The position numbers and the translations under genes were made by a program. The notes below the pieces were generated by a model. The model worked only from the letters and a program-made list of their open reading frames with translations. It searched no databases and was not told the DNA's origin. Positions 5,994 to 53,786 of a DNA stretch of 60,800 nucleotides are shown piece by piece. This DNA comes from Spirochaetes bacterium GWE1_32_154 (GTDB lineage Bacteria; Spirochaetota; GWE2-31-10). Where the stretch lies: NCBI GenBank assembly GCA_001829315.1, contig MIAY01000014.1:1-60800 (forward strand), read 5' to 3'. Position 1 is the stretch's first letter. Every line of letters begins with the position of its first letter.

Positions 5994-6070
5994 ACTTCCC
6001 TCAATACAATTTAGTGTATTTTATCATACTTATTATTAAAAATCAAAAAAATTATCACATATTAAATCGA

Positions 6071-6092: not shown

Positions 6093-6127
6093 TTTGTAAT
6101 CATACTGTAAATTATCAGCGTTATTAT

Positions 6128-6156
6128 TTGATATATATATTATAAAGTATTATTAT
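6128..6156 (+). promoter_or_regulatory. Predicted sigma70-type promoter of the efflux operon
   Basis: A -35 hexamer TTGATA at 6128-6133 and a -10 hexamer TATTAT at 6151-6156 are separated by 17 bp. The -10 abuts operator 2, so bound repressor would cover the start site. The Shine-Dalgarno AAGGGA of the first gene lies 25 bp further on. Confidence 0.6.
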
Positions 6157-6177
6157 GTTAACGATTGTTCGTTAATA
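6156..6177. promoter_or_regulatory. Palindromic operator 2 of the TetR-type regulator
   Basis: Near-perfect palindrome with half sites TGTTAACGA and TTCGTTAA around a short centre. It overlaps the predicted -10 box and transcription start and ends 16 bp before the regulator's ATG. It is almost identical to operator 1 at 6071-6092. The position fits simple repression of the regulator-efflux operon. Confidence 0.75.
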
Positions 6178-6193
6178 ATATAAGGGAAAAATC

Positions 6194-7429: not shown

Positions 7430-8813
7430 AATTGGCATTATAGTGGTTTTTGTATTATTATCGGCAACTTTCATGTACTCAAATGAAAAAAAGGAACTTG
7501 AAATTAATATTAATGATGCTGTAGATATTGCAATCACTAATAATATTGAGTTTAAAAGTAAACAAATTGATCAAAAAAGTAATGAATGGAAATTGTATAG
7601 CGTGTGGAATACATTTCTTCCATCAATTAGTTTATCAGGAAATTTAATTAAAAGTAATTTAAGTGAAGAAGACAGGACTACCAAAAGTCAGATTGTTATT
7701 CCTACAGGTCCCGGACAAGTAATAGTGCAAGGGTTTGAATATACCAGACCGGAATGGAGTGCAGGATTAGGGTTCAATCTATCATGGACATTTAATGCAG
7801 CAATGATATTTGGAGCATACCAAACCGGACTTGACTACCAGAAAGGTATTCTCGGTATAGAAGAGGCTAAAAAGAAACTTGCCAAAAATGTTAAACAAAC
7901 ATATTACGGATTAATGATTCAAGAAAAAGAACTTGAAATAAAGAGGGTTGAATTAAAATCAAAAGAAGAACGATATAAACAGGCACAGACTAATTTTAAA
8001 AATGGCTTAATTCCACGCTTACTGTTATTACGATCTCAAGTGGCATACGAAACGACTCTTCCAAGTTATACAGAAAAAGAAAATAATTATGCAAATAATT
8101 TAGCAATGTTTAAATTTTTATTAGGACTTGAAAGTGATACGGCATTAATTTTCAAAGATCCATTTGAAGCCGTTGAAAAGATCATTCCTGAAAGAGAAAA
8201 ACTCATCAATTTATTTGATAAAAATAATATTACACTACGAAATCTCTATATTGCAAAAGGAATGGTAAACAATGGAATGAATTCATACATCTCATCATTA
8301 ACGCCAAGTTTTCAATTATCGTATACTAATAATCCTGCATTTATGAAAGACCCGATGAAAGATGACTGGTTTTCTGATGTTGAAAATGACTGGAAAGATC
8401 AAGGTGGATCTTTACGATTATCAATGATTTTACCAATTTCTGACTGGATTCCATTCTCAAAAAATCAGGTTGGAATTATAGGTTCTGATTATGCAAATAA
8501 AAAAATGAATCAGGACATTAAAGCATTTCAAGCAGTTTCATATATTCAAATTGACAGCTCTCTTGGTAAATTGGAAAAAGCAATAAAAAACATTAATTCA
8601 GTTGAATTAAGCGTTCAAGTTGCTGAAGAAGCATACAAATTGGCACGGGATGAATTTAAACTGGGAACTAAAGAACTGCTTGACGTTCAGGATACTGAAT
8701 CAGATGTTATGAATTTCAAACTTATGAAATTATACGCTGAATATGAGTATATCAATAATTTAATTGAATTAGAATATCTTGTTAACACAAGTATGATAGA
8801 TATTTTAAAATAA
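7419..8813 (+). CDS. TolC-family outer-membrane efflux channel
   Basis: Outer-membrane exit duct for the RND pump encoded just downstream. I take the ATG at 7419 (MKNKIGIIVVFVLLSATFMYS, a clear signal peptide) because AGGGGGG sits 5 bp before it; an in-frame ATG at 7398 would add seven residues and has no such site. The mature protein of about 445 residues has the two-fold alpha-helical and beta-strand pattern of the family: DAVDIAITNNIEFKSKQ near the start, then helical blocks KKLAKNVKQTYYGLMIQEKELEIKRVEL and VQVAEEAYKLARDEFKLGTKELLDV, the second being the classic OEP repeat ending. It overlaps the regulator gene by 11 nt and is 12 bp from the adaptor gene, so the operon is tightly coupled. 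Confidence 0.88.
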   Translation: MKNKIGIIVVFVLLSATFMYSNEKKELEININDAVDIAITNNIEFKSKQIDQKSNEWKLYSVWNTFLPSISLSGNLIKSNLSEEDRTTKSQIVIPTGPGQVIVQGFEYTRPEWSAGLGFNLSWTFNAAMIFGAYQTGLDYQKGILGIEEAKKKLAKNVKQTYYGLMIQEKELEIKRVELKSKEERYKQAQTNFKNGLIPRLLLLRSQVAYETTLPSYTEKENNYANNLAMFKFLLGLESDTALIFKDPFEAVEKIIPEREKLINLFDKNNITLRNLYIAKGMVNNGMNSYISSLTPSFQLSYTNNPAFMKDPMKDDWFSDVENDWKDQGGSLRLSMILPISDWIPFSKNQVGIIGSDYANKKMNQDIKAFQAVSYIQIDSSLGKLEKAIKNINSVELSVQVAEEAYKLARDEFKLGTKELLDVQDTESDVMNFKLMKLYAEYEYINNLIELEYLVNTSMIDILK

Positions 8814-8825
8814 AAGGAGAAGAAT

Positions 8826-10142
8826 ATGTTTAATAAAAAAGCAATTATTTTTAGTATGATATTGATTATTATTGCAATATCAGGATGTAAAAAAAAGGAT
8901 GCAGCTAATAAAGATGAAGAAATACAAACTGTTTTTGCCGTAGATACAGTGAAAGCACTTAAAGGTGAAATTAATAATTACATTAAACTAAGCGGTGAGG
9001 TAAAAGCACGAAGAGAAGTTAAGGTCTATCCTGATCAAAGCGGAAAAATTGCAGTAATCAACACAAACCTTGGCGGCATGGTTACGAAAGGTCAGACTTT
9101 ATTACAAATTGATCCATCAAGACCCGGAATGATATATTCAAATAGTCCGGTTAATTCACCAATTAGTGGAACTGTAACAAACCTTCCTTTTAAAATCGGA
9201 GAAACGATTAATGTTCAAACGCCTGTAGCAAGTATAGGAAATCTTGATGATTTAGAAATAATTGCAAATGTATCTGAAAAATACATTTCAAAAATGAAAA
9301 AAGGTTTAAAAGTAATAATTGATGTTGATGCATATAAAGACATAACGTTTACCGGTGAAATTACTGAATTAAGCCCGGTTGTAGACCCCGCATCGCGAAT
9401 GCTTGAAACAAAAATTACTATTAACGAATCAAATCTTAAATTATTAAAACCCGGTATGTATGCAAATCTTAAAATAATCACTGAAACAAAAACCAATACG
9501 GTAAAAATACCTTCACAATCAATTATCAGACGATACGGTGATGTTTTTGTTTTTGTTACAAAAAATATTCCAACAGAGATTGATAATTTTACCTTACAGA
9601 ATAAATTAATAAAAGTTGTAAATGAGGAAAACCTTGCCTTTATTTTAGCTTATTTTCCAAAAAAACTTCCTGAGGAACTGAGACTTGATGTTTTTGAATA
9701 TCGACTACTGAAATCATTAAAAAATAAAGAAGATATTGATGCAATGAAAGCTATGTATACATTCAATAAAGAGAGTGAAACATATCAACTCAATAGAGAA
9801 ATATCCGACAGCTCTCAAATTGATACAGTCTGGAATATTTTGATTACTCTTAATTATAAATATGTAATCAATGCAAAATCGGGTGTAATCATAGCAGAAA
9901 CTGATGAAAAAAAATTACGGGATATATTAATTGATAATAAAATTATTGAAGAAACAACAAAATTTGCAGAAAAAAGAATTATTAAACCGGGCATTGAAAT
10001 TGATAATAAAACTGAAGTTAATAGCGGACTGAAACAAAATGAAGAAATTATATTCTATGGACAATCACTACTGGAAAATAATTCAAGAATCAGAATAATG
10101 AATACAGTTACCGTACTTACTAAAGAAGATATTATCAAATAA
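8826..10142 (+). CDS. RND efflux periplasmic adaptor (membrane fusion) lipoprotein, hairpin-less, with insertion
   Basis: A 438-residue adaptor linking the RND pump to the TolC-like channel. The signal peptide ends in a lipobox AISG-C21, so it is anchored as a lipoprotein. The two halves of the lipoyl domain (VKVYPDQSGKIAVINTNLGGMVTKGQ and SPISGTVTNLPFKIGETIN) are joined by only about 20 residues, leaving no room for the alpha-helical hairpin of AcrA-type adaptors. The Borrelia adaptor BesA is known to lack it too. The beta-barrel follows to about residue 245 (IPSQSIIRRYGDVFVFV). An insertion of about 125 residues (about 249-376) then precedes the membrane-proximal strand block IKPGIEIDNKTEVNSGLKQNEEI. 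The function of the insertion is unknown. The Shine-Dalgarno is AAAGGAG. Confidence 0.85.
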   Translation: MFNKKAIIFSMILIIIAISGCKKKDAANKDEEIQTVFAVDTVKALKGEINNYIKLSGEVKARREVKVYPDQSGKIAVINTNLGGMVTKGQTLLQIDPSRPGMIYSNSPVNSPISGTVTNLPFKIGETINVQTPVASIGNLDDLEIIANVSEKYISKMKKGLKVIIDVDAYKDITFTGEITELSPVVDPASRMLETKITINESNLKLLKPGMYANLKIITETKTNTVKIPSQSIIRRYGDVFVFVTKNIPTEIDNFTLQNKLIKVVNEENLAFILAYFPKKLPEELRLDVFEYRLLKSLKNKEDIDAMKAMYTFNKESETYQLNREISDSSQIDTVWNILITLNYKYVINAKSGVIIAETDEKKLRDILIDNKIIEETTKFAEKRIIKPGIEIDNKTEVNSGLKQNEEIIFYGQSLLENNSRIRIMNTVTVLTKEDIIK

Positions 10143-10151
10143 GGAGAAAAT

Positions 10152-13100
10152 ATGAGTTTATCTAAAACTATTGTAAATAGACCAACAACTATTTTTATAC
10201 TATTTCTTATTCTTGTTGGTATAGGATTTTATGCCAGTAGTGATTTAGCAATTGATTTATACCCGGATATCGATATACCGACTTTAGTACTTATTTGCGA
10301 TAGTAAAGGGAGCGGACCGGAAGAAATAGAAAAAAGAATTACCAGACCATTAGAAAGTGTATTGGGAAGCGTTTCAGGGATTAAAGAAATAACATCGACT
10401 TCATCAGATGGCGGGTGTACTCTTATTCTATCGTTTAATTATGGGACAAATATGTCCGAGGCAATTAATAACGTAAGAGATAAACTTGATTTAGTTAAAC
10501 GATATTTACCTGAAGAGGCATCAACTCCCTCAATATTTAAATTTGACCCTTCAGCAATTCCAATATTATATATTGCGATGCAAGGCAATAGAACACCGGA
10601 AGAATTACGAAAAATAGCAGAAGATTTTGTTGCTCCCCGACTGGAACAGGTTAATGGTGTCGCAACAGCCAGTATTGATGGTGGTAGAGCACGAATGATT
10701 AGAGTTGAAATTTCTCAGAACCGACTCAATGCTTATAATCTTACATTGAGTGAAATATCACAAATGCTTATGGGACAAAATGTTCAATTAAGTGCCGGTT
10801 CAATTACTGATGACAACAGAAACTATTTAATTCAAACTTCAGGTGAATATCAGAATATTGATCAGATAAAAAATACGATTGTTGCATACCGTGGAACAAA
10901 ACAAATTAAACTTGATGATATTGCTCATGTGTATGATGGTTTTGAAAAGGAAAGTTCAATTGTTTATTTAAATGGTGAGCCAACGGTTCAAATAATTGTC
11001 CAGAAACAATCAGGAAGTAACTCGGTTCAGACTGCGGATAATGTTTTAAAAATACTTCCAAAAATCGAAAAGGAATTACCAAAAGGGTTATCATTTAAAA
11101 TTGTATGGAATTCGACAGTAAGTATAAAAAAATCAATTGAAGAAGTATCAAATGCTGCCGTTTCAGGTGCTTTTCTTGCTATTCTTATTTTATTTCTTTT
11201 CTTAAGAGATATTCGTTCAGTTATAATTATTGGTGTTTCAATACCAATTTCAATTATCATAACATTAATGTTTATGTATATGTTTGGTTTGACACTTAAT
11301 ATGATGACACTGGCAGGTCTAGCCCTCGGTATAGGAATGCTTGTTGATAATTCAATTGTTATATTAGAAAACATTTTCAGGTATAGAGAAAAAGGTGCAA
11401 AACTGACAAGTGCTGCAATTATTGGAAGCCAGGAAATGATTAATGCGATTGTTGCATCAACATTAACAACTATTTGTGTTTTCATTCCAATGGTTATTTT
11501 TAAATCACAATTGGAAATCGTTGGTGAGTTAGTTGCGGCACTTTCATTTACCATTGTTATTTCATTAGCATCTTCTATTCTGGTTGCGGTATTACTCGTT
11601 CCGGTTTTAGCAAGCCATTATTTACCGATTCAATCAAAACTGGAAAAGAATTTACCTAAACCATTAAAAAAAATCGATACCTTTTTAGAAAACTTTTTTC
11701 TATCGCTGGATAATCTATACAAACGGGGGTTAACTTTTGTTTTAAACAAAAGAAAAATGACTTTGTTTGTTATATTAGCAAGCTTTATCGGATCACTTTT
11801 TTTAATACCGGTTGCAGGCTTTGAATTTATGCCCAAAGAAGACGGTGATGCCGTTGAAATTAACTTTGAATTACCGGTTGGAACGACCCTTGAAATGACT
11901 AAAGATGTTGCAAATCAATTAAAATTATTAGTTGAAAAAGATATACTTGGTTATACTAATATAGCGATATGGGCTGGTCTAAAAAGTTTCATGGGTTTTA
12001 TGGGAAATGCAGAACCGCATAAAGGCCGATTACAAATAACATTACCTGAATATGAACAAAGAATTGATAATGAAACTGAAATAAAAACAAAACTTAGAAA
12101 ATATTTTAATCTTTTTCCCAATGTTGTATTTCAGTTCTCTTCCGGTGGCGGTATGGGGGGAAGTTCAAGTCCTATTGACTATATAATAAAATCAAATGAT
12201 TTGGATAAAGCATGGAAAGTCGCTGAAAATATAAAAGAATTAATTAAGACCGAAGTTGATGGTGCAGCAGAACCTGATGTTGATATGAAAAGTGGTTTAC
12301 CGCAAATAGAAATATTTATTGACAGAGATAAAGCATATTCATTCGGGTTAAATATTTATTCAATAGCTAAAGAGATTCAGGCAAATATTGATGGAATCAA
12401 AGCATCTAAATTCCGGGATGGCGGTAACGAATACGATATTATTGTTATACTCGAAGAAACTGACAAAACATCCCTGCCCGATTTGGAGAAAATATTTGTT
12501 GTTAATCGAACGGGTGTTAGAATTCCATTATCAAACATCGCCCACCTGGAAAAGACAACCGGCCCTGTAAGTATTAAACGTGAAAATCAAATGAGAACAG
12601 TGCATGTTACTGCAGGATTAACTAAAGGTTCTAAACTTAATGTCGTCGTTTCTCAAATATCAAAACTGATTGATCAGAAAATACCAAAAGATGAAGATGT
12701 TATTATTACACTCGGTGGTGATTTCCAGGATCTTCAGGAACTGGGTAAAAAAGTTATGATAATTTTAATAATCTCAATATTCCTGGTATTTGGAGTTATG
12801 GCGAGTCAGTTTGAATCATTTTTAGATCCATTTATCATTATGTTTACTCTTCCATTAATGTTAGTCGGTGTATCAATTACCTATATTCTAACCGGTGAAC
12901 AATTTAGTATATTTACCGCCGTCGGGATGGTCGTCCTCTCGGGTGTCGTTGTTAATAACGGTATAATATTAGTTGATTATACCAATTTATTAAGAAAAAG
13001 AGGAAGGTCTATTAAAGATGCATGTATTGAAGCTGGAGGGAACCGTTTAAGACCTATTCTCATGACAACCCTGACAACTATTCTTGGTCTTTTCCCGATG

Positions 13101-13340
13101 GCATTTTCACAAGGACAGGGGTCAAGTTTAAGTCAGCCAATAGCAAAAACATTACTCGGCGGTTTAACATTCAGTACACTTTTTACTTTATTTTTAATCC
13201 CTGTAATTTACTCAATTTTCAATGAATTTTCTGATAAACGACATGCAAAAAAACAGATAAGAATTGAAAAAAAGCTGGAACTTAAAAGACAAAGAATATT
13301 GGATTTAAATGCAAACAAAGCTATGATACATCAGGAGTAA
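10152..13340 (+). CDS. RND-family inner-membrane efflux pump
   Basis: A 1062-residue proton-driven resistance-nodulation-division transporter. The usual twelve-helix plan is visible: TM1 near residues 12-30, a large periplasmic loop containing SVSGIKEITSTSSDGGC, then TM2-6. The TM4 proton-relay segment GIGMLVDNSIVILEN lies around residue 398. After a second periplasmic loop rich in glycine (FSSGGGMGGSSSP) come TM7-12, including VVVNNGIILVDYTN and RPILMTTLTTILGLFPMAF. Length and motifs are standard for HAE1/CusA-like pumps; the substrates cannot be read. It is preceded by AAGGAG and lies 9 bp after the adaptor gene and 3 bp before the PII-like gene. Confidence 0.93.
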   Translation: MSLSKTIVNRPTTIFILFLILVGIGFYASSDLAIDLYPDIDIPTLVLICDSKGSGPEEIEKRITRPLESVLGSVSGIKEITSTSSDGGCTLILSFNYGTNMSEAINNVRDKLDLVKRYLPEEASTPSIFKFDPSAIPILYIAMQGNRTPEELRKIAEDFVAPRLEQVNGVATASIDGGRARMIRVEISQNRLNAYNLTLSEISQMLMGQNVQLSAGSITDDNRNYLIQTSGEYQNIDQIKNTIVAYRGTKQIKLDDIAHVYDGFEKESSIVYLNGEPTVQIIVQKQSGSNSVQTADNVLKILPKIEKELPKGLSFKIVWNSTVSIKKSIEEVSNAAVSGAFLAILILFLFLRDIRSVIIIGVSIPISIIITLMFMYMFGLTLNMMTLAGLALGIGMLVDNSIVILENIFRYREKGAKLTSAAIIGSQEMINAIVASTLTTICVFIPMVIFKSQLEIVGELVAALSFTIVISLASSILVAVLLVPVLASHYLPIQSKLEKNLPKPLKKIDTFLENFFLSLDNLYKRGLTFVLNKRKMTLFVILASFIGSLFLIPVAGFEFMPKEDGDAVEINFELPVGTTLEMTKDVANQLKLLVEKDILGYTNIAIWAGLKSFMGFMGNAEPHKGRLQITLPEYEQRIDNETEIKTKLRKYFNLFPNVVFQFSSGGGMGGSSSPIDYIIKSNDLDKAWKVAENIKELIKTEVDGAAEPDVDMKSGLPQIEIFIDRDKAYSFGLNIYSIAKEIQANIDGIKASKFRDGGNEYDIIVILEETDKTSLPDLEKIFVVNRTGVRIPLSNIAHLEKTTGPVSIKRENQMRTVHVTAGLTKGSKLNVVVSQISKLIDQKIPKDEDVIITLGGDFQDLQELGKKVMIILIISIFLVFGVMASQFESFLDPFIIMFTLPLMLVGVSITYILTGEQFSIFTAVGMVVLSGVVVNNGIILVDYTNLLRKRGRSIKDACIEAGGNRLRPILMTTLTTILGLFPMAFSQGQGSSLSQPIAKTLLGGLTFSTLFTLFLIPVIYSIFNEFSDKRHAKKQIRIEKKLELKRQRILDLNANKAMIHQE

Positions 13341-13343
13341 AAT

Positions 13344-13634
13344 ATGAAAAGACTGGAAGTTATAGGTAATAAATCGATAGAAGAAGATCTTTTTGATTCT
13401 TTAGAAAAAAATAATGTTGTTTTTCACTATACAAAAATTCCTGTAGTTCATGGACAGGGAACGTCTGATCCTAAAATGGGTGATGGTACATGGCCGGAAG
13501 AAAATTTTATTTTAATAATTTATTGTGAGAATGATATAGCTGAAAAAATATTTGAAGTAGTCAAAGAGTTGAAAAAATATTTTCCGAATGAAGGTATTAA
13601 AGTTTTTGAAATGCAGGTTGATTGCTCTTTATAG
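13344..13634 (+). CDS. Small PII-like transporter-associated protein (PG0541 family)
   Basis: A 96-residue cytoplasmic protein, the last gene of the efflux operon. It starts 3 bp after the pump gene, with AGGAG overlapping the pump's stop region. The pattern FHYTKIPVVHGQGTSDPKMGDGTWPEENFILIIY matches the PG0541-type proteins encoded next to RND transporters, which have a ferredoxin-like, PII-like layout of two beta-alpha-beta units. A role in sensing or modulating the pump is inferred from conserved linkage only; I know of no established activity. There is no signal peptide or membrane segment. Confidence 0.72.
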   Translation: MKRLEVIGNKSIEEDLFDSLEKNNVVFHYTKIPVVHGQGTSDPKMGDGTWPEENFILIIYCENDIAEKIFEVVKELKKYFPNEGIKVFEMQVDCSL

Positions 13635-13654
13635 AGAGCGTCAATAATTAAGTT

Positions 13655-13687
13655 AAAGGGGGCGATATAAAAAATAGCCCCCTTTTT
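13655..13687 (+). terminator. Rho-independent terminator of the efflux operon
   Basis: Perfect 9-bp stem AAAGGGGGC / GCCCCCTTT with a 13-nt AT-rich loop, followed by T residues on the plus strand. It lies between convergent operons and could also act weakly on the minus strand, behind the substrate-binding lipoprotein gene. Confidence 0.85.
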
Positions 13688-13689
13688 CA

Positions 13690-14640
13690 TTATAATTGTG
13701 TAATTATTTCTTTTGCATCAAAAACAACTGATATTAGTTTAAGTTTATATAATTCTTCAATTGTTTCCTGATATAATTTTGTATCTAATATGCCCGCATC
13801 AGTATTTTCACCGTTTATTATTTCCAGTGTCTTTTGAAGAACTTCATTCCAATACATTTTATCATCTTCATTTAACGAACCAATTGTTTTATACGCAATA
13901 TCTATTGATTCCGGAATATTATTCGTTGTGAAAATAATTGATTCGGACAAAGCTTCATTAAATTGTTTTAATAATTTTCTCTTATTTTTTAGTTGTGTTT
14001 CACCTGTGATAAAAGATGCCCCAACCAGTTCAGAAATATCGGCAATTTTCCATTCAGTAATTTCATAATTTTTCATTCGTAGTTGAATAGGTTCATTATT
14101 ATAAAAACAAACTACAGCATCAACCTGATTTGATAATAAAGATGGGATTTGTGTATATCCAATACGAACAAGTTCGACTCTGTCGTCTAAATTGTAATGT
14201 GAAAGAAATTTCTTAGTTCCAATATACGATGTACCATATAATTCGGGTACTCCAATTTTCTTTCCGATAAGTCCCTCAGGTGTATTAATATTGTTTAATG
14301 ATACAATGCTTGTCGGGTATTTTTTATAATATTGAAAAATTGATTGTAATGAATACCCTTTATTGTGAGAAATTATAAGCTGATCAGCATCAGATAAAGC
14401 AATATCTGCTTTTGAACTCGTGAGTAAACCAAAGGTATCAAGTCCGAATCCATAGTTAATATTCAAATTGATACCATGTTTAGCAAAAATACCTTTTTCT
14501 ATACCAACATACAATGGAGTAAATTGTATATGAGGAATAAATCCAATAACCAGGTTTAAATCTTCCTGAGCTTTCTTTTTATCAGTACATCCGGTCATAA
14601 GTAAAATTAAAATCAATACCATAAACATAATTTTTTTCAT
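13690..14640 (-). CDS. ABC transporter substrate-binding lipoprotein (NMT1/ThiY/SsuA-like)
   Basis: A periplasmic solute-binding lipoprotein of the NMT1/THI5-like group (taurine, sulfonate, nitrate or thiamine-pyrimidine type). I place the start at 14640 (MKKIMFMVLILILLMTGC, lipobox LMTG-C) behind AAAGGATG; a frame-open ATG at 14676 would overlap the upstream gene and spoil the signal peptide. The mature part begins NLVIGFIPHIQFTPLYVGIEKGIFAKHGINL, the typical opening of the family, with SKADIALSDADQLI and the lobe-crossing NTPEGLIGKKIGVP. Its partner, a fused ATPase-permease, ends 10 bp upstream. The resemblance to pyrimidine-precursor binding proteins is suggestive, but there is no TPP riboswitch or thi gene nearby to confirm it. 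Confidence 0.8.
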   Translation of the reverse strand: MKKIMFMVLILILLMTGCTDKKKAQEDLNLVIGFIPHIQFTPLYVGIEKGIFAKHGINLNINYGFGLDTFGLLTSSKADIALSDADQLIISHNKGYSLQSIFQYYKKYPTSIVSLNNINTPEGLIGKKIGVPELYGTSYIGTKKFLSHYNLDDRVELVRIGYTQIPSLLSNQVDAVVCFYNNEPIQLRMKNYEITEWKIADISELVGASFITGETQLKNKRKLLKQFNEALSESIIFTTNNIPESIDIAYKTIGSLNEDDKMYWNEVLQKTLEIINGENTDAGILDTKLYQETIEELYKLKLISVVFDAKEIITQL

Positions 14641-14650
14641 ACAACATCCT

Positions 14651-16186
14651 TTAATGATTTTTAGAAACAATATCATATATTATAGAAGATATTGAATAAT
14701 AAACAAATCCTAAGATTACGAGATAGATAATTGGGACAAACATCATTTCATAGTCAATACTATTTTTTGCAGTATTAATAAGTGAACCAAGTCCTGTTGA
14801 TCCGGCCATAAATTCTCCAACTACTGCACCTATAACTGATAATGTTGATGATACTTTAACGCCGGTGATAATTTGTGGCAAGGCACCCGGTATTTCAATC
14901 TTCAATAACCTGTAAAAAATATCAGGTGAATAAATAGTTATAAGATCACGATATTTTTTCCTTGAATCTGTGAAAGCGGTAATATTATTTATAAGCATTG
15001 GAAAAAAGACAATAATAACTGAAATAACTATTTTAGGTGTTATCCCAAACCCGAACCAAGTGATTAAAATAGGTGCAATAGCAATTGACGGTATTGTATT
15101 TGAAGCAATAAGAGAAGGCATTAACCATTTATAAAGTACTTTATTTACTGATATTATATATCCTGTAATCAAAGTTATAAAAAAAGCTATAAAAAAACCT
15201 GTTAATGATTCAATCATTGTTGTAAAAAGATGAATAAAAATTGAACCGTCAATAAGTGTTGAAATAAATCGAATCAATACTGAATGGGGATAAGGAAAAT
15301 AAAAATCTGGTATCTTTCCTGTAAATTTAATTATGGATAACAAAAAAAATACAATAAGAAATTGTGAAAAAATAGCAGTGAATAAACCTCGACCTGATAT
15401 TTTTTTTTCTTTTTTTACAATAACCACAGCTGTATCATTCGATTTATCAGACCATTTTTCAGAAGTAATTGTCCGTATTGTTCGTTCTGACAATTGTTCC
15501 TGCTCCGATAAAATATATGCATCATTTGAATGACTCTCTTTTGATACAATTTCATGATGAATTATTGTTGCCGGCACATTACCCATAACAAAAATTTCAT
15601 CTGATAAGTAACAGGCTTCTTCAATTGAATGAGTAACTAATAGAATTGTGCAATTTGTTTTTATGCAGATATCATGTAATAGTATATTTAATCTTTCTCT
15701 TGAAATAATATCAAGCGATGAAAATGGCTCATCAAGTATAATTAATTCATTATGTTCAATAAGACCTCGTGCTAACTCAGCCCGTTTACACATTCCACCC
15801 GATAATTCTGATGGGAAATGACTTTCAAACCCTTTTAGACCGACTAAATCAATTATTTCTAAAACTTTTTGTTGTTGTTCGGCTTTTGAAATTTTTTCTT
15901 TTTTAATTGAATATGGTATTAAAACATTCTCTTGTAATGTAAGCCAGGGTAATAGAGAATTTTTTTGCAGAACCAGAGAAAATAATGGGTTAGTATACTC
16001 TAAAACACCGTTATCCTGATGTAACAAACCGGCAATTATGTTTAATAACGTAGTTTTGCCACACCCAGAAGGACCAATAAATGAAACAAAACTGCCTTTT
16101 AGTATTTTAAAATTGATTGAATCAAGAACACATCTATTATTGTAAGAAAATGAAATATCCTTCCCTTCTAATAATATAGTTTTCAT
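14651..16186 (-). CDS. Fused ABC transporter ATPase-permease (NitT/TauT type)
   Basis: A 511-residue single polypeptide containing both parts of an importer normally made as two proteins. Residues 1-215 are the ATPase: Walker A GPSGCGKT at 38-45, Q-loop LQKNSLLPW, signature LSGGM at 128-132, Walker B LIILDEP at 148-154 and H186. A linker of about 50 polar residues follows. From about 266 come six predicted membrane helices with the permease EAA-type loop (about 429-460, EIPGALPQIITGVK). The frame is continuous and each half is complete, so this is a gene fusion and not a frameshift. It starts 3 bp after sppA ends and precedes the binding lipoprotein by 10 bp. The likely substrate is a small organosulfur compound or pyrimidine. 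Confidence 0.87.
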   Translation of the reverse strand: MKTILLEGKDISFSYNNRCVLDSINFKILKGSFVSFIGPSGCGKTTLLNIIAGLLHQDNGVLEYTNPLFSLVLQKNSLLPWLTLQENVLIPYSIKKEKISKAEQQQKVLEIIDLVGLKGFESHFPSELSGGMCKRAELARGLIEHNELIILDEPFSSLDIISRERLNILLHDICIKTNCTILLVTHSIEEACYLSDEIFVMGNVPATIIHHEIVSKESHSNDAYILSEQEQLSERTIRTITSEKWSDKSNDTAVVIVKKEKKISGRGLFTAIFSQFLIVFFLLSIIKFTGKIPDFYFPYPHSVLIRFISTLIDGSIFIHLFTTMIESLTGFFIAFFITLITGYIISVNKVLYKWLMPSLIASNTIPSIAIAPILITWFGFGITPKIVISVIIVFFPMLINNITAFTDSRKKYRDLITIYSPDIFYRLLKIEIPGALPQIITGVKVSSTLSVIGAVVGEFMAGSTGLGSLINTAKNSIDYEMMFVPIIYLVILGFVYYSISSIIYDIVSKNH

Positions 16187-44765: not shown

Positions 44766-44812
44766 AACACTGCTATTGAAGTCAAAAAAAAATGACTATA
44801 GAATTGTGTTCG

Positions 44813-44922
44813 CCTTCTTTCATCCAGACTATACTGTCGGCACCTGAATTACACAGGTTCATGCGTTAAAATAACGCTCGCGGGCTTTACCGCCGGTGGG
44901 GAATCACGCCCCGCCCTGAAGG
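44813..44922 (-). ncRNA. FMN riboswitch (RFN element)
   Basis: On the minus strand, the closing stem CCTTC (44922-44918) pairs with GAAGG (44817-44813). Between them lie the conserved blocks in order: AGGGCGGGG, ATTCCCCACCGGCGGTAAAG, CCCGCGAGCG, then CCTGTGTAATTCAGG and TGCCGACAGTATAGTCTGGATG. This is the standard RFN layout. It controls the downstream ribD-ribE-ribBA-ribH operon in response to flavin mononucleotide. Confidence 0.97.
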
Positions 44923-44930
44923 ATATAATA

Positions 44931-45017: not shown

Positions 45018-48000
45018 TTAATTGGATAATTCAGGTAAAAGTCTTATGTATTCAATACCTCCATTTGTATAGCCACTAACCGGCATTCCATCAGTCCCGA
45101 TACCGATATTGAATCGGTTAGAATCAGAATCATTAATTATTGTTGGTAAAGTCTGACACTCCCATGTACCGGTAAATTTACCTGATGAGTCAGTACCATG
45201 ACCTCTTGATCCGTTAAGCCATGCTATTTTACCTGAACGATTTATTCCTTTATATGCAATGTATGGCACATCACTTGTATTTACTGTCACAGTAATTTTA
45301 TCACCAACATCAAAATAACTGTCAACCAGATACTTTTCAACCTGACTTGAGTTACTATCGTAGGCAGGCATATAAATATATCTTAAATCACCGTTATTAT
45401 TATCATAATACGCAATATGAATATGATTTTGACTATCGACTGCCATATCAACAAACTCACCGCCGTATCCCGAATCAAGAACAGTATCAGTACCGGACGA
45501 ATTCTTATGACTTACCCATGTACCTGAATTTACCGGAGTAGTATTATACTTAAATCGTAGCCCGCCTGTACCACTTGCATCATAATATACAATCATTGCA
45601 GTATTTCCGTCAGTAGTAGATGCTACGGCACTGAAATTTCCTGTATAGGTACTTTCGATTATTTGCTGTCCCGGAGGAGTCTTACCGGAATTATTATTAG
45701 CAGCAAACCGTAAATCTGTATCATCATATTCAGGAAATGTTCCATCCTCCTCATATTGTGCTAAATTTGTATAAAGAGCGGTTCCTGCATTATTAATCCT
45801 GCCACCTGTAACATCATCTATTACCGCATTTGTCCCTACATTAAAAGTTCTAAAAATAATTCTGTTCTCCAGTTTATCATAGAAACTTACAAAAACTTTT
45901 GTCGTATCAGTCGTACCATTCATATACATATCAGGATGCTGATAACGGTCAAGTACACTTGTTACTGTCGGGTGAGAAAGATTATCAAGCCATAACTGAT
46001 TATCATTAAATCTGTATGACCACGAGTTCCAGCCTGTTCCAGGTACATCGTAATAGAAAGAGGTGAGTAAGCCACCCTTGTCACCGGAATTATTATCACC
46101 GTTATTACCATTAACAACATTAATATCATATAGGATTCCATGATTTCCTGAGCTGTTAAATCCTATGGATGTATAAGTGAACAAGTCCCAGTTTTCATAT
46201 ACTTTTTTCTCCGTTGTACCATCATAATACAATGCAATACCCCAACCGCCCGCATTATTTGCATAAGCAAATGCCGGATTATTACTATTCATTTTCATCG
46301 AAGGATACACCGCATTGTTAGCAAGTGCCACTGTTTGGCGAAGTTTATTTATATTCCATACTGACAGATATCTATCATCATATACAGTCAGATGTGCAGA
46401 TGAATTTTCACTATTTGACACCCTTTCTGCATTAATATTATTAATACTTGGTATTCCATTGGTAAATACGGACAGATATCCGCTCCCGGCAGTCTGTACT
46501 ATTGTCTTGAATGATGTTTTGTTCGCTGCAAGAGTGTTAAAAGCAAGTCCTGTACCGACTTTTCCGGCATTATATGCATCAATGTCTTTACTGATTCTTA
46601 CATCACCTGAAGCACCTCCACTTATTACCGGATTCAAATTAAACCCATTAACAGTAACCTGTTCGTAAGTAGCATTTATCGTATCAATGAGTACAGGGTA
46701 TTTTCCTGATGCACTTCGGGCAAAGTCCTTTGCAAATGCAGCTGTTAACGATGTTGTTATTTCAGTTATATACGGCACAACATCAAGCATCTTCCTTACC
46801 GATTTCTGATATCCGCTATTCGGACTTGCCGCACTGAATACCGGTGTCGTAGCTTGTTCATCGGAGTACGTCGCTAAATCCACCTCATTTCCAGCCCAGT
46901 CAATTGCTGAAAATTCAAGTGTATTTGCAAGTCTGGCGACATTCGTTACCTGGGCAGTATTAATCTCTAAGCGTAATCTAAGCTTGTCCGCATCTGAAGC
47001 CAGTGACTTTGACTCTTCAAAAGCTGCCCAGTACCCTGTGTCATCAATATTATTTGCAGTTCCACCATTATAGTCACTAAACGTCCAGACACCGGCAGCA
47101 CTTCGTGTTGCAAGTGTCTTCCATGTGCTGATACCAGATAAAGTTGTACATTGCACCCGGATCTCTTTCAGTAAATAGTTATCAAACGCATTTACATAGA
47201 ACTTCACGACTCCTGATACATCGTCTGCAGTGCCATTGGCAGTAAGACCGGTGTCCACATGTCCTTTTGCAACTGTAGCTGTAACAAAATCTGTATCCTT
47301 CAATTTTTCAAGCCATACATGCGGTCTTTGATTGTCCACGATAAAGTATTTCTTAAGATTTATCTCAATGGCATCAGCGTCCTGTTTTACCAGTGACCGG
47401 TATTCATACTCTCCGTCGGTGAGACTTGTAAAAGTATTTGTTCCACCGACAGTGTTTGCGTGAACAGATGTTGAATAACTCTGAGTCGTTTCTGCGATGA
47501 CTCCACCGTCAGACTGTTTACTGCCTGAAATATACAGATCGGCATCTGAAAAACCGTCCGTATCATAGATATCAGTTGCAAATGCAATCTGATTTGAACC
47601 ATTATTTCGCATCAGGAAGATTTCCCCTGCTGATGAAACTTTCGGATACAATCCAGTAAAAGTAGCATAATTAAGTCCGCTTCCCTGAGCTATAGTCACT
47701 CCGCCTGTTGCAGAAAATGAGTTATATACCGGTGGCTGAGTATCTTTTACGACACTTACTGTTGTAACAGATTTATTTTTTGCTTTATCAATTGCAGTAA
47801 CCCTGACAGAATCAAATGTATACGAAGCTGTATTTAACCACCAGTTTTCCCAGTTGCCGGCGGTCACTCCGATTGTATCTGTTTTTACTACAGAAGCCCC
47901 GTTTAACACTTCAACTGTTACAGGAGTAGTCCCCTCTAGTCCACTGCCTGAACCATCATTTGCTGTACCATATACTCTGAAATCACCTGCAACTTTCTTT

Positions 48001-51000
48001 GCAGCAGCAGGTTTTGTTACTGCAACAACAGGTATTGCATTGTCTATAAATAACTTCTGATATGCTGTAGTTATAACACCGGTAATATCACGGGTTTCAA
48101 CGATAAGATAATAGTTTCCTGCAAAACCGATAAGTGACTTTTCCCCCAATGTCCAGTCATAATTCCCGGTACCTGTACCGGTTCCCCCGGTTACTGACCA
48201 GGTTGCCTGAATTGTCTCATCAGTCAAATCACTATCCCCGTCATCGCTATAGAGAACTACCAGTACGCGGTTTATACCCGGAGCTGAATCACCGGCCTTA
48301 CTATCCGCATTCCGTCCTGACATAGTGAGTTTATTTCCTATAGAAAGCCTTGTATCCGGTGCAGTTAATGAAGAAGAGTTCTCAGTTGCACTATCGGCAG
48401 TATTTTCTTTTGCTTTCCATTTAATAAGAGTCTGTGCTATATTTATCACCGGCGGAAATTCTGCAAACATTACCTCTTTAAAAGTGTATGACTTATTTCC
48501 CGCATTATCAATAGCCTCAACACAGAGTAGTTTTTTACCGTCAGTAGGATTCACCGTATACTTTGTCTTTAATCCGTAGTATTTTTCGCTATTTTTATCA
48601 TAGTTCCAGTCATATATATCATCAACCTTCCAATTACTCGGGGTATACATATATGCTTTTGTCCAGTAGTCCGGAGTATCATCACCATCCGGTACAGGGA
48701 AAGGTGAACCGAATACAGCACTTGTATCAGTTAATGAACTGCCAAGGTCATCAGGAATTGTGACTTTATGTGTACCGGAAATTACTGATGCTGTAAGAGT
48801 TCCTATTCCGGCAGCATTATACGACGGGTTATCATCAGGACCGTTTCTATTATTCCAGAAATAAAGATTCACATAACGGATACCTGAACCATTGTCGCTT
48901 GCATTTCCTCCAATATAAGGTTTTGTTTTTGACAAATCATCATTCACAACATCCGGGTCATTTGTTCCCCATGCAACTACACTCACATCAGGAGTTGTAT
49001 TATCAATGTTCATCATTACCGTTGCAACGGTCTCATACGGAGCCGGAGAAGAATTATTATCTGTGGCACGGATTTTAATAATGCTGTTAGCCGGAAGATA
49101 TTGTGTTTCGATATTAACAAAAAACCACGTGTATCCGTTTTCATGATTGGTTTTATATGCATATTTCGATATATCTGTTACGGTAAATGTAGAGCCGTTT
49201 CCATCAGTATAAGCGGCATCCCATGAAGAACCACCGTCATAACTTATTTCCACAAGAGTTATATGCCCGGCATCACTGTCTTTTGCCTTGAATATCATAC
49301 GATAATAATCAGAACGGTTATTATCAGCATCGCCATTTTCAAAAATACTAAATGTATTTTCTTTCAATAAAGTATTCCAACCGAATTTATTTCGCGGACT
49401 GTCTATATAGTACATATCAAGGTTTGTTGATATATTATCCCAATACAGGTCGTCTTTTACATTTGACACTATAGAACCGAACTGATCGTACAAAACAAAC
49501 CCTGTTAATGAATCAATATCCTTATCAGGGTCTTCATTAGATGGTGATAATATCTCTATTATTGGTTGTTTACTAGCTACAATAAAATATGACGGAGTCC
49601 CATCTTCTATTCTACCAGTCGGATATGCTGCATTCACCTGATAATCAGTAATTCTCGGAATTACCCGGTAATAATTTGTATCATGAGCAATAAGACCAGT
49701 TACTTTGAATGTCCAATTTAATGTACCTGTAACCGTTGTCCAGTTTAGCTTTGTTGTCCATACCGTACCATTCCACTGCTCAATTTTCACTTCAACGGCT
49801 TTAACACCATCATCATCTTCTGCTGTACCTGTCATTAAAAAACCAGTACTTACCATGGTCATCGCAGAAATATCAGGAATCACCGTTGAACCTGTATATC
49901 CCGGATTCGTCACATTACCAAGCGGACGGTCAAGATCCTGATTAATATTGATAATCTGCTGGGCAACACCGATATTTCCAAGTGTATCAACTGCAGCAAC
50001 AAGAAGTTTATAGTTACTTACTGATGTACCTGTTATAATAGTTGAATTAAAATCATGACTCCACGAAGTTTTCGGTGTCATTTTTAACCATTTATTAATG
50101 ATTGCAGTTGACATACTGTTTCCATCTATTGCAACCTCAGTACTTACGTCAGGAGTAGTTGTTTCATCAAAATACCCAATGTACATACTCTTCACAAGTG
50201 AACCTGCATCACTGCACGAACCGGAAAGTCTCTCAGTACCATTAATCGTAATACCCGAAACGGGGGAAGTTATTGTCACTACCGGCTTATCATTATCAAC
50301 AACTATAGTTCTTGTCATACGCATAGACTCTTCAGGAGTTGGCGCTTTATCATTAATACAGTACGCTTCAAAATTAATATAGCGGACATTTGCATCACTG
50401 TAATCTGCCGTATTAAAACCGACACTATAACTTACCGTTTCATCATCTACAGGATCATAAGTAACCCAGCCACTGTCTTTTATTGACGTATTTATACGGT
50501 ATTTGATAATGGTAACTTTCTTTGTCCCGCCACCGGATGCGTCAAGAGCTATGGTTACTGCATCCTTATAAGTACCGCTTACATTATCTCCGGTTATTGC
50601 ACCAATTGCCAGATACGGATTATCTGAAGTGGACACATTGATAGTTTTTTCTGTTTTGGTTCCCGGCTTTCCATTTTTGTCAATCGGAAGTATCGCAAAA
50701 TAATAGTTTCCTGTCGCACTTCCCGTTAATGGTACTTTCTTCTGCCATGGTGCAATCATCGGCGAATTTGCTATAGTATCATACCCGCTCCATGCTGTAT
50801 AATCAGCCGGTGTCGTAGCAGTACCCACATAATAGTAGATTCTACTCACTCCGTCATCATCAAAACACATTCCCGCAGCAGTGTACCCCGGGAATGCCTG
50901 ATTCGTCACTGACGACATATCTGTCTTCGGAGTATCAGCTGATTGCTGAACTCTGAAGTACCCCGTATCAGTTATCACACTGTTCCCTGCAAAATCGAAA

Positions 51001-53786
51001 GACTCTAAGGCAACAAGATAATTACTGTTATCTGAAAGTGTTGTTGTATCAATGGTAAATGTATAGTTAGACGGCGTACTTCCGGCTAATGTATCCGCCG
51101 GTTTTTCAAAAACCGGAATTCCTGCAATCATCGTAATCGAATTCGTATACACTTCCGATGTTCCGTCTTTTAAAAGTCGTAAGTGCAAACTCTTCAGTTT
51201 ATAATTATCATTCGCACTTCCTTTTAAAGAAATTGTCTGATTCTGAAGAAACTGTAAGTCATTAATATTACTTTCCGAAAGCCCTGCTAAACCTGCTAAT
51301 GTACTTTTTAATGTCGGTATCGCAATTGACAAACCGTCAGGAGCCGTTGTATCTGATACGATAAATATTCTGTCATATCCCTTATTACTCTGATCGTCAT
51401 ACGCGGTTATCTCAAAGTTCTTTTCACCTTCAGATAGTCCGGTAAACTCAGCACTCCAAGAAGCCCCGGAAAGCACTGCGTTCTTTACAAGTCCTGTTTC
51501 ATTACATTTCACTTCGACTTTCGTAATAACTCCGGTTACGCCATCCTTGCGTAAATCGCTTGCAGTCCCGGTTAATGTAACAGCATCTTTCACATAATCA
51601 CCGTTGGTATGCGATATCACATTCACCACAGGAATATTTCTATCGCCGGTTACACGGCGACTTTCCTTGGTTGAGTTTCCTTCGCTGTCAGTAACGGTTA
51701 AGGTAAATTCCTTTTCGGTATATCCGCCGACTTCTTCTATAGTAAACGCACGCTCGAAACTTCGCATATATCTATTTGTCGCAGAAACAAGTGTATTCTC
51801 TGCTGATAGACCACTACCCGGTGTTAAATCCCAACTTGAAGGACTTATAGATGCATTGTTTAATGTAATAGTTACCTTTGCAACATTCACATTATCATAT
51901 ACTTTGCCTGAAAAAGCAAATGTACTACCGACAAACTCATCGACTATAGGAGTGAGTATCTCTATCAAAGGAGAGTCCGAGTCCCCGATTAATGTCACAG
52001 TCGTTATTGACGGGGGATTTCCTTCATTATCAGTTGCACTAATCTCAAACTTTTTATTCGTATAACCACCTATTTCACTTACCGGCAGTAATATATTCCA
52101 GTTTTTCTCTGTTACAGAACCAGTCAGAATGACGTCTCCATTATCAGAAGTCCAGCTTTTATCACCTTCAACCCAGCGGACTGTTACTGATCTGACATTT
52201 GTATTATCCCGTGCCGTCCCCGATAGTACAAGGTTCGCCCCCGCCCCCATAAACGAACCATTTGCATGTGATGTTACAGCAATATCCGGAGCGGTATTAT
52301 CCCCGGTAAAAAACATACGCATCATAGTATAATTATTTTCATTATCATACACAATCCATGTTACTGTCTTATCAGTGTAGCCGGCGAGTTCAGCGATCTT
52401 TGTTGTATACGAGAAGTTCCGTATGTAAATCTTTTTTTCCTCATTATAAACCGGTTCTATTAATGAAGAAGTGATATCAAGTTCCTTGAGGAATGAGATT
52501 TTCGAAGACTCTGCTTTAAGTATAAGTTTAACCGGAAGTACATTATCCGTACAGTATCCGGCAAATGTTACATCCTCGCCAAGAAACTGATTATCGATAT
52601 GCGAAGTGACTATAACAACAGGATCGTTCTGATCGGCAACCATAAAACTCAATCCATCAGACTCTGCTTTCCCAATGCCGAAAGAATCAATACTCTGCAC
52701 ATATATCATGTATGAACCCGGAGATACAGGTGCATGACAGCTCCATGTATAAAGTCGCGGTTTATCAACTGATTTATCAATAACAACTACAACACTGTCA
52801 GGTTGTATATCTGATGTCGTATCTGCCACAAGCCAACCGGTGTATGGTCCGGGTTTAAGCCCTTCACGAATTATTTTTATATATATTTTTGATATTCCAT
52901 CATCATCAAACGAATTTCCCGAAATAACAGATTCAGGAGATATTTTATCACCTTCTTTTACCGAATTAAACACGACCCTCGGAATATCCATACCCTGATC
53001 TACATATATCCAGCCAAGAGTTTGTGTTTTGGAAATATTCTCATTTCCAGCCATATCCTGAGTTACCATTTTTATTTTGAATTTCCCCTCAGTTTCAGTA
53101 AGTTCTCGGGAATTTATTTTAAAAGTCCACATAAGAGGATTACCATCAGCAATTGTAGTATCAGGAATTATATCCTTATCTATCTGCACTTCTTTGACCG
53201 GTAAAGGATCAATATCATTAAAAATTTGCAACTTCGTAAATTGTAATGTAAAATTATCATCTATATACCCTTTAATGATAAAATTATTATTTATAAAATA
53301 ATCAATATTCAAAAAATCATTTCTATCAGGGAATATAGAAGAAAATGATTTTATTGAATCTTCTGTAAGTAATTGAGGTTCATTAATATGTACCGTTGGC
53401 AATTCAACATCAATAAATAAAAAAAGTCTGGTACTTTCATAATTTCCCGATTTATCAACAGCTGTAATTTCAAATGTTTTATCACCAAAACCTATTTGTT
53501 CAGAGATAAAATCAATTGACCAATTATCTTCACTAATAACTGCAGGATAGGATGTAGAACTACCTTTAATAAGTATATTCACGCTTTTAACCAAAACATT
53601 ATCAGTACATTTACCCGAAATTGTAAAACCCAAACCAACAAAATCCCCATTTAAATGAGAAGTTACAGAAATTTTTGGTCTTTCTGTATCAACTGCATTT
53701 CCAACACCCACAAAAGGATTTTGGGAACACCCCAAAAGCAAATAAGTAAAGAAAACGAAAACTAATAACTTGATACTTTTACACAT
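45018..53786 (-). CDS. Giant (2922-residue) surface lipoprotein with tandem Ig-like domains
   Basis: The signal peptide MCKSIKLLVFVFFTYLLLGC gives lipidated Cys20, so it is anchored in a membrane, probably the outer one and possibly surface-exposed. From about residue 35 come tandem Ig-like beta-sandwich units with a recurring opening (VTSHxNGxFxG...SGxxxDNxxV) and closing (GGYTxKxFxIxxxDxxGN). At least five adjacent copies are visible in the first 850 residues, with more diverged ones later (SPVSGITINGTERLSGSCSDAG). The last 500 residues change character to propeller-like strands (HIAYYDNNNGDLRYIYMP, PYIAYKGINRSGKIAWL, MPVSGYTNGGIEYI). No catalytic motif is recognised. Adhesion or a surface layer role is inference. 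Its G+C is higher than that of its neighbours through most of the gene, except the 5' end. Confidence 0.85.
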   Translation of the reverse strand: MCKSIKLLVFVFFTYLLLGCSQNPFVGVGNAVDTERPKISVTSHLNGDFVGLGFTISGKCTDNVLVKSVNILIKGSSTSYPAVISEDNWSIDFISEQIGFGDKTFEITAVDKSGNYESTRLFLFIDVELPTVHINEPQLLTEDSIKSFSSIFPDRNDFLNIDYFINNNFIIKGYIDDNFTLQFTKLQIFNDIDPLPVKEVQIDKDIIPDTTIADGNPLMWTFKINSRELTETEGKFKIKMVTQDMAGNENISKTQTLGWIYVDQGMDIPRVVFNSVKEGDKISPESVISGNSFDDDGISKIYIKIIREGLKPGPYTGWLVADTTSDIQPDSVVVVIDKSVDKPRLYTWSCHAPVSPGSYMIYVQSIDSFGIGKAESDGLSFMVADQNDPVVIVTSHIDNQFLGEDVTFAGYCTDNVLPVKLILKAESSKISFLKELDITSSLIEPVYNEEKKIYIRNFSYTTKIAELAGYTDKTVTWIVYDNENNYTMMRMFFTGDNTAPDIAVTSHANGSFMGAGANLVLSGTARDNTNVRSVTVRWVEGDKSWTSDNGDVILTGSVTEKNWNILLPVSEIGGYTNKKFEISATDNEGNPPSITTVTLIGDSDSPLIEILTPIVDEFVGSTFAFSGKVYDNVNVAKVTITLNNASISPSSWDLTPGSGLSAENTLVSATNRYMRSFERAFTIEEVGGYTEKEFTLTVTDSEGNSTKESRRVTGDRNIPVVNVISHTNGDYVKDAVTLTGTASDLRKDGVTGVITKVEVKCNETGLVKNAVLSGASWSAEFTGLSEGEKNFEITAYDDQSNKGYDRIFIVSDTTAPDGLSIAIPTLKSTLAGLAGLSESNINDLQFLQNQTISLKGSANDNYKLKSLHLRLLKDGTSEVYTNSITMIAGIPVFEKPADTLAGSTPSNYTFTIDTTTLSDNSNYLVALESFDFAGNSVITDTGYFRVQQSADTPKTDMSSVTNQAFPGYTAAGMCFDDDGVSRIYYYVGTATTPADYTAWSGYDTIANSPMIAPWQKKVPLTGSATGNYYFAILPIDKNGKPGTKTEKTINVSTSDNPYLAIGAITGDNVSGTYKDAVTIALDASGGGTKKVTIIKYRINTSIKDSGWVTYDPVDDETVSYSVGFNTADYSDANVRYINFEAYCINDKAPTPEESMRMTRTIVVDNDKPVVTITSPVSGITINGTERLSGSCSDAGSLVKSMYIGYFDETTTPDVSTEVAIDGNSMSTAIINKWLKMTPKTSWSHDFNSTIITGTSVSNYKLLVAAVDTLGNIGVAQQIININQDLDRPLGNVTNPGYTGSTVIPDISAMTMVSTGFLMTGTAEDDDGVKAVEVKIEQWNGTVWTTKLNWTTVTGTLNWTFKVTGLIAHDTNYYRVIPRITDYQVNAAYPTGRIEDGTPSYFIVASKQPIIEILSPSNEDPDKDIDSLTGFVLYDQFGSIVSNVKDDLYWDNISTNLDMYYIDSPRNKFGWNTLLKENTFSIFENGDADNNRSDYYRMIFKAKDSDAGHITLVEISYDGGSSWDAAYTDGNGSTFTVTDISKYAYKTNHENGYTWFFVNIETQYLPANSIIKIRATDNNSSPAPYETVATVMMNIDNTTPDVSVVAWGTNDPDVVNDDLSKTKPYIGGNASDNGSGIRYVNLYFWNNRNGPDDNPSYNAAGIGTLTASVISGTHKVTIPDDLGSSLTDTSAVFGSPFPVPDGDDTPDYWTKAYMYTPSNWKVDDIYDWNYDKNSEKYYGLKTKYTVNPTDGKKLLCVEAIDNAGNKSYTFKEVMFAEFPPVINIAQTLIKWKAKENTADSATENSSSLTAPDTRLSIGNKLTMSGRNADSKAGDSAPGINRVLVVLYSDDGDSDLTDETIQATWSVTGGTGTGTGNYDWTLGEKSLIGFAGNYYLIVETRDITGVITTAYQKLFIDNAIPVVAVTKPAAAKKVAGDFRVYGTANDGSGSGLEGTTPVTVEVLNGASVVKTDTIGVTAGNWENWWLNTASYTFDSVRVTAIDKAKNKSVTTVSVVKDTQPPVYNSFSATGGVTIAQGSGLNYATFTGLYPKVSSAGEIFLMRNNGSNQIAFATDIYDTDGFSDADLYISGSKQSDGGVIAETTQSYSTSVHANTVGGTNTFTSLTDGEYEYRSLVKQDADAIEINLKKYFIVDNQRPHVWLEKLKDTDFVTATVAKGHVDTGLTANGTADDVSGVVKFYVNAFDNYLLKEIRVQCTTLSGISTWKTLATRSAAGVWTFSDYNGGTANNIDDTGYWAAFEESKSLASDADKLRLRLEINTAQVTNVARLANTLEFSAIDWAGNEVDLATYSDEQATTPVFSAASPNSGYQKSVRKMLDVVPYITEITTSLTAAFAKDFARSASGKYPVLIDTINATYEQVTVNGFNLNPVISGGASGDVRISKDIDAYNAGKVGTGLAFNTLAANKTSFKTIVQTAGSGYLSVFTNGIPSINNINAERVSNSENSSAHLTVYDDRYLSVWNINKLRQTVALANNAVYPSMKMNSNNPAFAYANNAGGWGIALYYDGTTEKKVYENWDLFTYTSIGFNSSGNHGILYDINVVNGNNGDNNSGDKGGLLTSFYYDVPGTGWNSWSYRFNDNQLWLDNLSHPTVTSVLDRYQHPDMYMNGTTDTTKVFVSFYDKLENRIIFRTFNVGTNAVIDDVTGGRINNAGTALYTNLAQYEEDGTFPEYDDTDLRFAANNNSGKTPPGQQIIESTYTGNFSAVASTTDGNTAMIVYYDASGTGGLRFKYNTTPVNSGTWVSHKNSSGTDTVLDSGYGGEFVDMAVDSQNHIHIAYYDNNNGDLRYIYMPAYDSNSSQVEKYLVDSYFDVGDKITVTVNTSDVPYIAYKGINRSGKIAWLNGSRGHGTDSSGKFTGTWECQTLPTIINDSDSNRFNIGIGTDGMPVSGYTNGGIEYIRLLPELSN

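Follow-up and report, generated by a model that had tools for sequence, protein, structure and literature searches.

The giant gene of the window, the whole 60,800-nt stretch of Spirochaetes bacterium GWE1_32_154 DNA analysed here, is likely to encode a surface stalk with an exchangeable tip, in which an inherited Ig-like stalk carries a C-terminal head obtained from another lineage through recombination at the motif DVVPYIT (hereafter the seam). Exchange of the head is well supported. The closest known members of the head family reside on unrelated stalks in other families of Spirochaetota, indicating that the head was placed by recombination at DVVPYIT after those lineages split.

Organisation of the giant lipoprotein

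The gene lies on the minus strand, which was absent from the initial annotation, and the description given there of a single gene encoding a lipidated chain of repeated Ig-like units is borne out by the 2922-residue ORF, its lipobox (LLLGC, with Cys20 as the predicted lipidated residue), its matches to Pfam Big_7 and its Ig-like units (Table 1). Cys20 is invariant in an N-terminal alignment of 10 rows, with N23, G27, G29, D33 and P37 of the tether likewise invariant in 10/10 rows. An HMM trained on the family identifies 14 Ig-like units at E<0.01 (18 rows including weaker ones), with the run spanning residues 35–1390 nearly gap-free, and Big_7 (PF17957) matches five stretches (E 6e-11; 43.2 bits compared with a curated cut-off of 24.1), with little else returned by the Pfam search. 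A PDB sequence search with the whole protein returned nothing up to E 0.1, and PADLOC and PHROGs gave no match to it. Self-alignment of the gene at the DNA level, suggested earlier as a check on the repeats, revealed no long repeats, only two-copy matches of 20–29 nt.

Table 1. Features of the giant lipoprotein gene, in window coordinates.
Feature	Position	Strand	Basis
Giant lipoprotein gene, 2922 aa	45018..53786	minus	ORF with ATG start; homologues found
Signal peptide and lipobox, residues 1-20, lipidated Cys20 (predicted)	53727..53786	minus	sequence
Tether SQNPFVGVGNAVDTERP, residues 21-37	53676..53726	minus	10-row alignment
Low-GC3 5' segment, codons 1-183 (GC3 0.148)	53238..53786	minus	GC3 change point
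First Ig-like run, residues 35-1390, 12 units (1 weak)	49617..53684	minus	family HMM; Pfam Big_7
Most conserved body segment, residues 1398-1800	48387..49595	minus	identity to relatives
Two further Ig-like units, residues 1804-2012	47751..48377	minus	family HMM
Last Ig-like unit ahead of the seam, residues 2179-2305	46872..47252	minus	family HMM
Seam DVVPYIT, residues 2335-2341, DNA GATGTTGTGCCGTATATAACT	46764..46784	minus	best-relative switch, DNA pattern, silent-site conservation
Exchangeable head, residues 2335-2922	45021..46784	minus	identities, trees, AU tests
Predicted beta-propeller of the head, residues ~2537-2922	45021..46178	minus	AlphaFold2 strands and fold matches
Terminator-like hairpin GAGCCG..CGGCTC and T-run, 3' of the stop codon	44963..44989	minus	read by eye

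The body segment 1398–1800 is 42–45% identical to that of five relatives (AlphaFold2 pLDDT of 41), was found in the phylum search in G000, G001, G005 and G008 only, and overall was found only in the window's own order and a contig of ADurb.Bin193. This 15.8-kb contig (L076, MWCQ01000029.1), from a Firmicutes-labelled bin, holds one ORF (2–15532, at least 5177 residues) with 32 Ig-like units and 56–65% identity to spirochaete proteins; it almost certainly comes from a spirochaete and was misbinned.

Lipidation at Cys20 would tether the protein to the outer membrane, with the Ig-like units, at least 14 in number, and the order-specific conserved segment forming a long stalk, and with the head, made up of a small beta domain and then a propeller, binding a surface ligand, for instance a glycan. 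The stalk would have been inherited within the window's own order, whilst exchange of the head would keep the reading frame and the anchor and alter what the cell binds. The likeness to surface adhesins remarked upon in the initial annotation holds, and we infer surface exposure.

On one side of the gene lie the riboflavin genes ribD, ribE, ribBA and ribH, with ribD the next gene downstream, and on the other aspartate-semialdehyde dehydrogenase (asd) and a PLP-dependent decarboxylase. In the relatives, ribD and asd are located on separate contigs or too close to contig ends to show the insertion site. An FMN riboswitch (RF00050, 109 bits; 44808–44927, minus strand) is situated between the 3' end of the giant gene and the ribD operon.

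Change of ancestry at the seam

Comparison of the protein with its relatives in tiles of 150 residues reveals that tiles up to residue ~2300 best match G001, G003, G005, G008, the ADurb.Bin193 contig and paralogues from the same genome, at ~30–47% identity, and that tiles from residue 2301 best match G255 (family f52), G443 (f31), G193 (f42), and G468 and G125 (both f19), at 39–60%. A search with the whole protein yields 58% identity to G255 over residues 2319–2921, the heads of these two proteins being 55.9% identical over 608 residues compared with 23% for their bodies. The reverse is observed for the five body relatives, with identities of 34–37% for the bodies (~1300 residues before the seam) and 25–28% for the heads. 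For comparison, Der, a housekeeping GTPase, shows 58% identity between the window genome and G001 and 41% between the window genome and G255. As no donor closer than 58% was found, the exchange is either old or involved an unsampled donor. A similar disparity is seen between G443 and G193, which share heads of 88.9% identity on bodies of 33.2%.

In a careful tree of 31 heads, the heads of the window and G255 are paired at 100/100, and both the own order and f19 are scattered, requiring seven changes each compared with 7.2 for shuffled labels. A quick tree of 28 heads gives the window and G255 pairing only 41% SH-aLRT, with a six-row clade including G443, G193, G468 and G125 recovered at 100%. 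A topology that places the heads of all six related bodies together as one clade is rejected (lnL 946.6 lower, p-AU 9e-43), as is one that unites the window and G001 heads (lnL 284.3 lower, p 1e-73). Descent of the whole gene by vertical inheritance alone is ruled out by the head tree.

The boundary is sharpest at the DNA level between G008 and ADurb.Bin193, where 59–60 of the 60 bases in each block are identical over the stretch 420–60 nt ahead of the seam, and 53/60 in the last block, falling to 29/60 in the first block from the seam onwards and to 13–24/60 in the next four, with an exact match of 17 nt at the seam itself. The two stop codons are followed by a terminator hairpin of 31 nt that is 100% identical, and between G005 and ADurb.Bin193, whose heads are unlike, the 263 nt after the stop codon are 97.3% identical. 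Identical copies of the 31-nt terminator after the heads of G005, G008 and ADurb.Bin193 are found at L025 14762, L026 minus 6045 and L076 15551, with another copy at L120 550, in the locus of G005. Elsewhere, a 72% DNA alignment between G003 contig 18 and G205 (f19) starts 2 nt ahead of the seam and runs through to the stop codon, and those of G181 with G287 and G164 with G208 start at most 6 nt from the seam and end at most ~5 nt from the stop codon. Among the 56 head pairs that can be aligned as DNA, the alignment starts at most 30 nt from the seam in 13 and 30–150 nt after it in none; against exchange at the seam, however, it starts more than 30 nt after the seam in 29/56 and reaches into the body in 13/56.

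The seam motif was found in 79 of the 83 proteins tried, with these 79 forming the set for the GC3 and codon counts at the seam. Comparison of the 900 codons before the seam with the head reveals a jump in GC3 of |z|≥5 in 11/79 and |z|≥4 in 14/79 genes, compared with 0/79 and 2/79 respectively when the 900 codons are instead halved as a control. The clearest step, from 0.67 to 0.31, occurs in G262, with its change point 7 codons after the seam. Counting against this, only 9 of the 22 strong change points in the 79 genes fall within 60 codons of the seam, and the step at the seam of the window gene is itself weak (GC3 0.313 to 0.255, z −2.4), with the best local change point 307 codons beyond it. 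A second cluster of strong change points lies 121–165 codons after the seam in four proteins, perhaps marking a joint where the small beta domain meets the propeller.

Conservation at the seam extends to silent sites, with GTG used for the second Val in 40/79 genes (12.8 expected from each gene's own codon usage) and CCG for the Pro in 54/79 (26.6 expected on the same basis). These are the two largest silent-site excesses among 96 conserved degenerate head columns, with z values of 8.8 and 6.9, which are not probabilities as the sequences are related, compared with a median of 1.5 and a maximum of 5.4 for the remaining columns. Furthermore, GTGCCGTAT is present at 22/79 seams (2.6 expected), in host genes ranging in GC3 from 0.22 to 0.61, and encodes VPY elsewhere in the seam-bearing ORFs in only 1 of 27 instances. 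A DNA pattern search of the window's own genome located two perfect seams, each within a known gene, plus a single match with three mismatches. No silent store of heads is evident in this genome, with head-profile matches only in contigs C14, C11 and C28.

Head exchange is widespread among members of this protein family, with tips apparently swapped at this one short stretch of DNA in many families of spirochaetes, and homologous recombination anchored on the seam is the route we infer. In a phylum-wide exchange of cassettes, complete heads, each starting with the DVVPY codons and ending at the stop codon, would be traded between families via the seam GTGCCGTAT, its silent sites kept for recombination as a homology anchor or recombinase site; with no silent store found in the window's own genome, the donors would be other cells. 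This is a tentative proposal that we think somewhat doubtful.

Base composition and codon usage

The hand counts of G+C in the initial annotation (20, 23, 31 and 22 within the gene and 18 in the activase gene) are all correct, and the uneven composition and AT-rich start described there are apparent as a GC3 of 0.148 over codons 1–183 and 0.299 thereafter. This is the single strong GC3 change point inside the gene, and was reached by 3/5000 plain and 0/2000 amino-acid-preserving permutations. Overall, the GC3 of the gene is 0.289, compared with 0.193 expected for its protein under window codon usage and pooled values of 0.182 for the other genes of the window and 0.192 for the rest of the contig. 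The mean of 245 ORFs sampled on nine other contigs is 0.227 (sd 0.043), with 18 of these reaching 0.289, and the residual GC3 of the gene given GC12 has a z of +1.1 against the other contigs and +2.9 against its own. The contrast in GC3 is partly due to an unusually AT-rich neighbourhood. The whole 138-kb contig C14 has a GC3 of ~0.19, compared with 0.207–0.275 in most other sampled contigs, the exception being C16, which carries ribosomal genes, at 0.154.

As the ribosomal operon has a GC3 of 0.154, the high GC3 of the giant gene does not reflect translational optimisation, and translational selection was ruled out since the ribosomal genes go the opposite way. A high GC3 as a family-wide trait in this genome was also ruled out, as the paralogues are ordinary, with six paralogous ORFs giving GC3 z values between −0.96 and +0.57. 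By codon likelihood, every interior part of the gene is nearest its own genome, the ranking being the GC-richer contig C2 (15 ORFs), then the other contigs of the genome, ahead of each of ten sampled relatives. Together with the homologues in the own order, this rules out a foreign origin of the whole interior.

The initial annotation regarded the gene as a mosaic in which repeat DNA, either acquired or under different selection, follows a local signal-peptide end. The gene is indeed a mosaic, but its joint is located near the 3' end, at residue 2335 (window 46784), and not behind the signal peptide. The proposed junction behind a local end draws on the rise in GC3 at codon 183, which adjoins residue 191, the point at which collinearity with G001 is lost until residue 787; this is possibly a second joint. 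Nevertheless, the N-terminal and stalk tiles both best match the own order, the codon usage of the interior, the supposedly acquired part, fits its own genome best of 11, and the six paralogous ORFs have ordinary GC3, and relatives likewise combine the lipobox with the tether NPFxGVG..VD and the Ig stalk. The codon fit and this co-occurrence leave a local front joined to foreign repeats unsupported, and we consider it very unlikely. Ancient paralogy, in which early head and body combinations, loss and fast evolution of bodies would mimic swapping without any exchange, is in keeping with the several paralogues carried by some genomes (G003 has four head-bearing ORFs) and with the many heads that are 25–30% alike, as expected of old paralogues. 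It would, however, leave unexplained the near-identical body DNA, unrelated heads and identical post-stop sequence of G008 and ADurb.Bin193, the 89% identical heads on 33% identical bodies of G443 and G193, which belong to different families, and the composition steps at the seam, all of which need recombination after the lineages split, making paralogy an improbable account. As the sharpest pair, G008 and ADurb.Bin193, are metagenome bins, one of them mislabelled, contigs falsely joined at a conserved motif were also considered; yet seam-bounded sharing of heads is also present between genomes of one or a few large contigs, such as G164, G287, G181 and G193, and an exact match of 17 nt at the seam is short for an assembly overlap, such that an artefact is extremely unlikely.

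Role of the head and distribution of the family

The AlphaFold2 model of residues 2290–2922 has a mean pLDDT of 49.4, with values of 70–87 over much of model residues 430–570. Fold comparison of this low-confidence model returns both sialidases and fucose lectins (AAL, AFL, PLL and RSL types) at VIA-align Z ~18–21, such that the propeller-like end of the initial annotation agrees with the folds of six-bladed lectins and sialidases, but on a model whose mean confidence is low. Pfam, NCBIfam and PDB sequence searches gave no match to the head, and its profile matched no PDB chain up to E 1.

A toxin or enzyme in the position of the head, either a polymorphic effector like that of CdiA or a sialidase, would share with CdiA the logic of C-terminal exchange at a short motif and would account for the sialidases among the fold matches. 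In GH33-type sialidases the propeller bears Asp-boxes and catalytic arginines that are conserved. In contrast, no Arg column of the head propeller is conserved in at least 8 of 11 rows, and the head has no Asp-box, the sole Asp-box of the protein lying outside it at residue 1515, which argues against the head being a sialidase. Additionally, all heads examined are homologous rather than differing toxin folds, and there is no common downstream gene as an immunity candidate, the downstream gene being ribD here and no neighbour being common to the 21 proteins looked at, of which the 18 that could be assessed comprise 12 followed by an ORF and 6 lacking one within reach. We therefore regard a toxin or enzyme as unlikely. 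By analogy and from the predicted fold, the head would be a ligand-binding tip, most likely for glycans, although the chance of glycans in particular is about even.

Tandem Ig-like domains are also found in the Leptospira Lig proteins, which are spirochaete surface lipoproteins with repeats of the Big_2 type; unlike these, the giant lipoprotein matches Big_7, and differs in size, tether and head. RTX adhesins such as FrhA and the Marinomonas ice adhesin carry their ligand-binding domains, some of them sugar-binding, at a distance from the cell on a very long series of Ig-like extenders, with the ligand-binding region being the most varied part (PMC10865825). Whilst RTX adhesins are anchored by plugging a type I export channel, the giant lipoprotein would be lipid-anchored, with its head at the extreme C-terminus; it has a lipobox of its own, and RTX repeats and a type I secretion signal gave no Pfam match up to E 1. 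The CdiA effectors, with interchangeable receptor-binding and toxin regions, are homologous long proteins that exchange a region at a sharp boundary, altering recognition (PMC5371414). The giant lipoprotein resembles them in the exchange of a region at a sharp sequence boundary, but lacks a common downstream gene and has heads that are all homologous, with no Pfam match up to E 1 to two-partner secretion or FHA domains. The glycan-binding adhesin BPP43_05035 of Brachyspira pilosicoli is likewise a spirochaete lipoprotein, and its ligand-binding part is a six-bladed propeller of sialidase-related fold that binds host N-glycans, with no sialidase or esterase activity detected (PMC11444514); the propeller of the giant lipoprotein is a predicted one. 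BPP43_05035 differs from the giant lipoprotein in having 463 residues, no Ig stalk and no reported exchange of heads.

Giant Ig-stalk adhesins, the modular exchange of CdiA and the variable ligand regions of RTX adhesins are already known. The apparent novelty lies in a stalk family that spans the spirochaetes and whose homologous heads pass between families at a single short seam with conserved silent sites, and among the open-licence titles listed none describes this family or head exchange in spirochaetes. If true, ~1/5 to 1/3 of the searched genomes of the phylum would carry a large class of surface protein whose tip is changed via one gene segment, which would account for quick changes of attachment partners, phage sensitivity or recognition. 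The seam would be directly testable, and different ligands would be expected for heads that share a body lineage.

Homologues in other phyla, for which the initial annotation had proposed a search, include none equally good, with five loci recovered in 84,980 species, among them one partial Ig match of 26% labelled Fibrobacteres and one Firmicutes-labelled contig. In the phylum of the Fibrobacteres-labelled locus, taken as a control, the head profile matches 7/100 genomes, all matches being partial and propeller-only (best 4e-22). Within Spirochaetota, the N-terminal profile (residues 1–375, comprising the lipobox, the tether NPFxGxG..D and the first Ig units) matches 109/296 genomes and the C-terminal (head) profile 89/296. 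The giant gene shares the hallmarks of the family, having a lipobox, the NPFxGxG..D tether and then an Ig unit, and a head of the kind that occupies the C-terminal ~525–750 residues and opens with D[VI]VPYI[TS]. Further members in its own genome lie on contigs 11, 25 and 28, some of them in a row. Among the strongest rows, the N- and C-terminal modules are found together in 59 of 95 C-terminal ORFs, from 43 genomes, with these two-module ORFs ranging from 1552 to 5448 residues in length.
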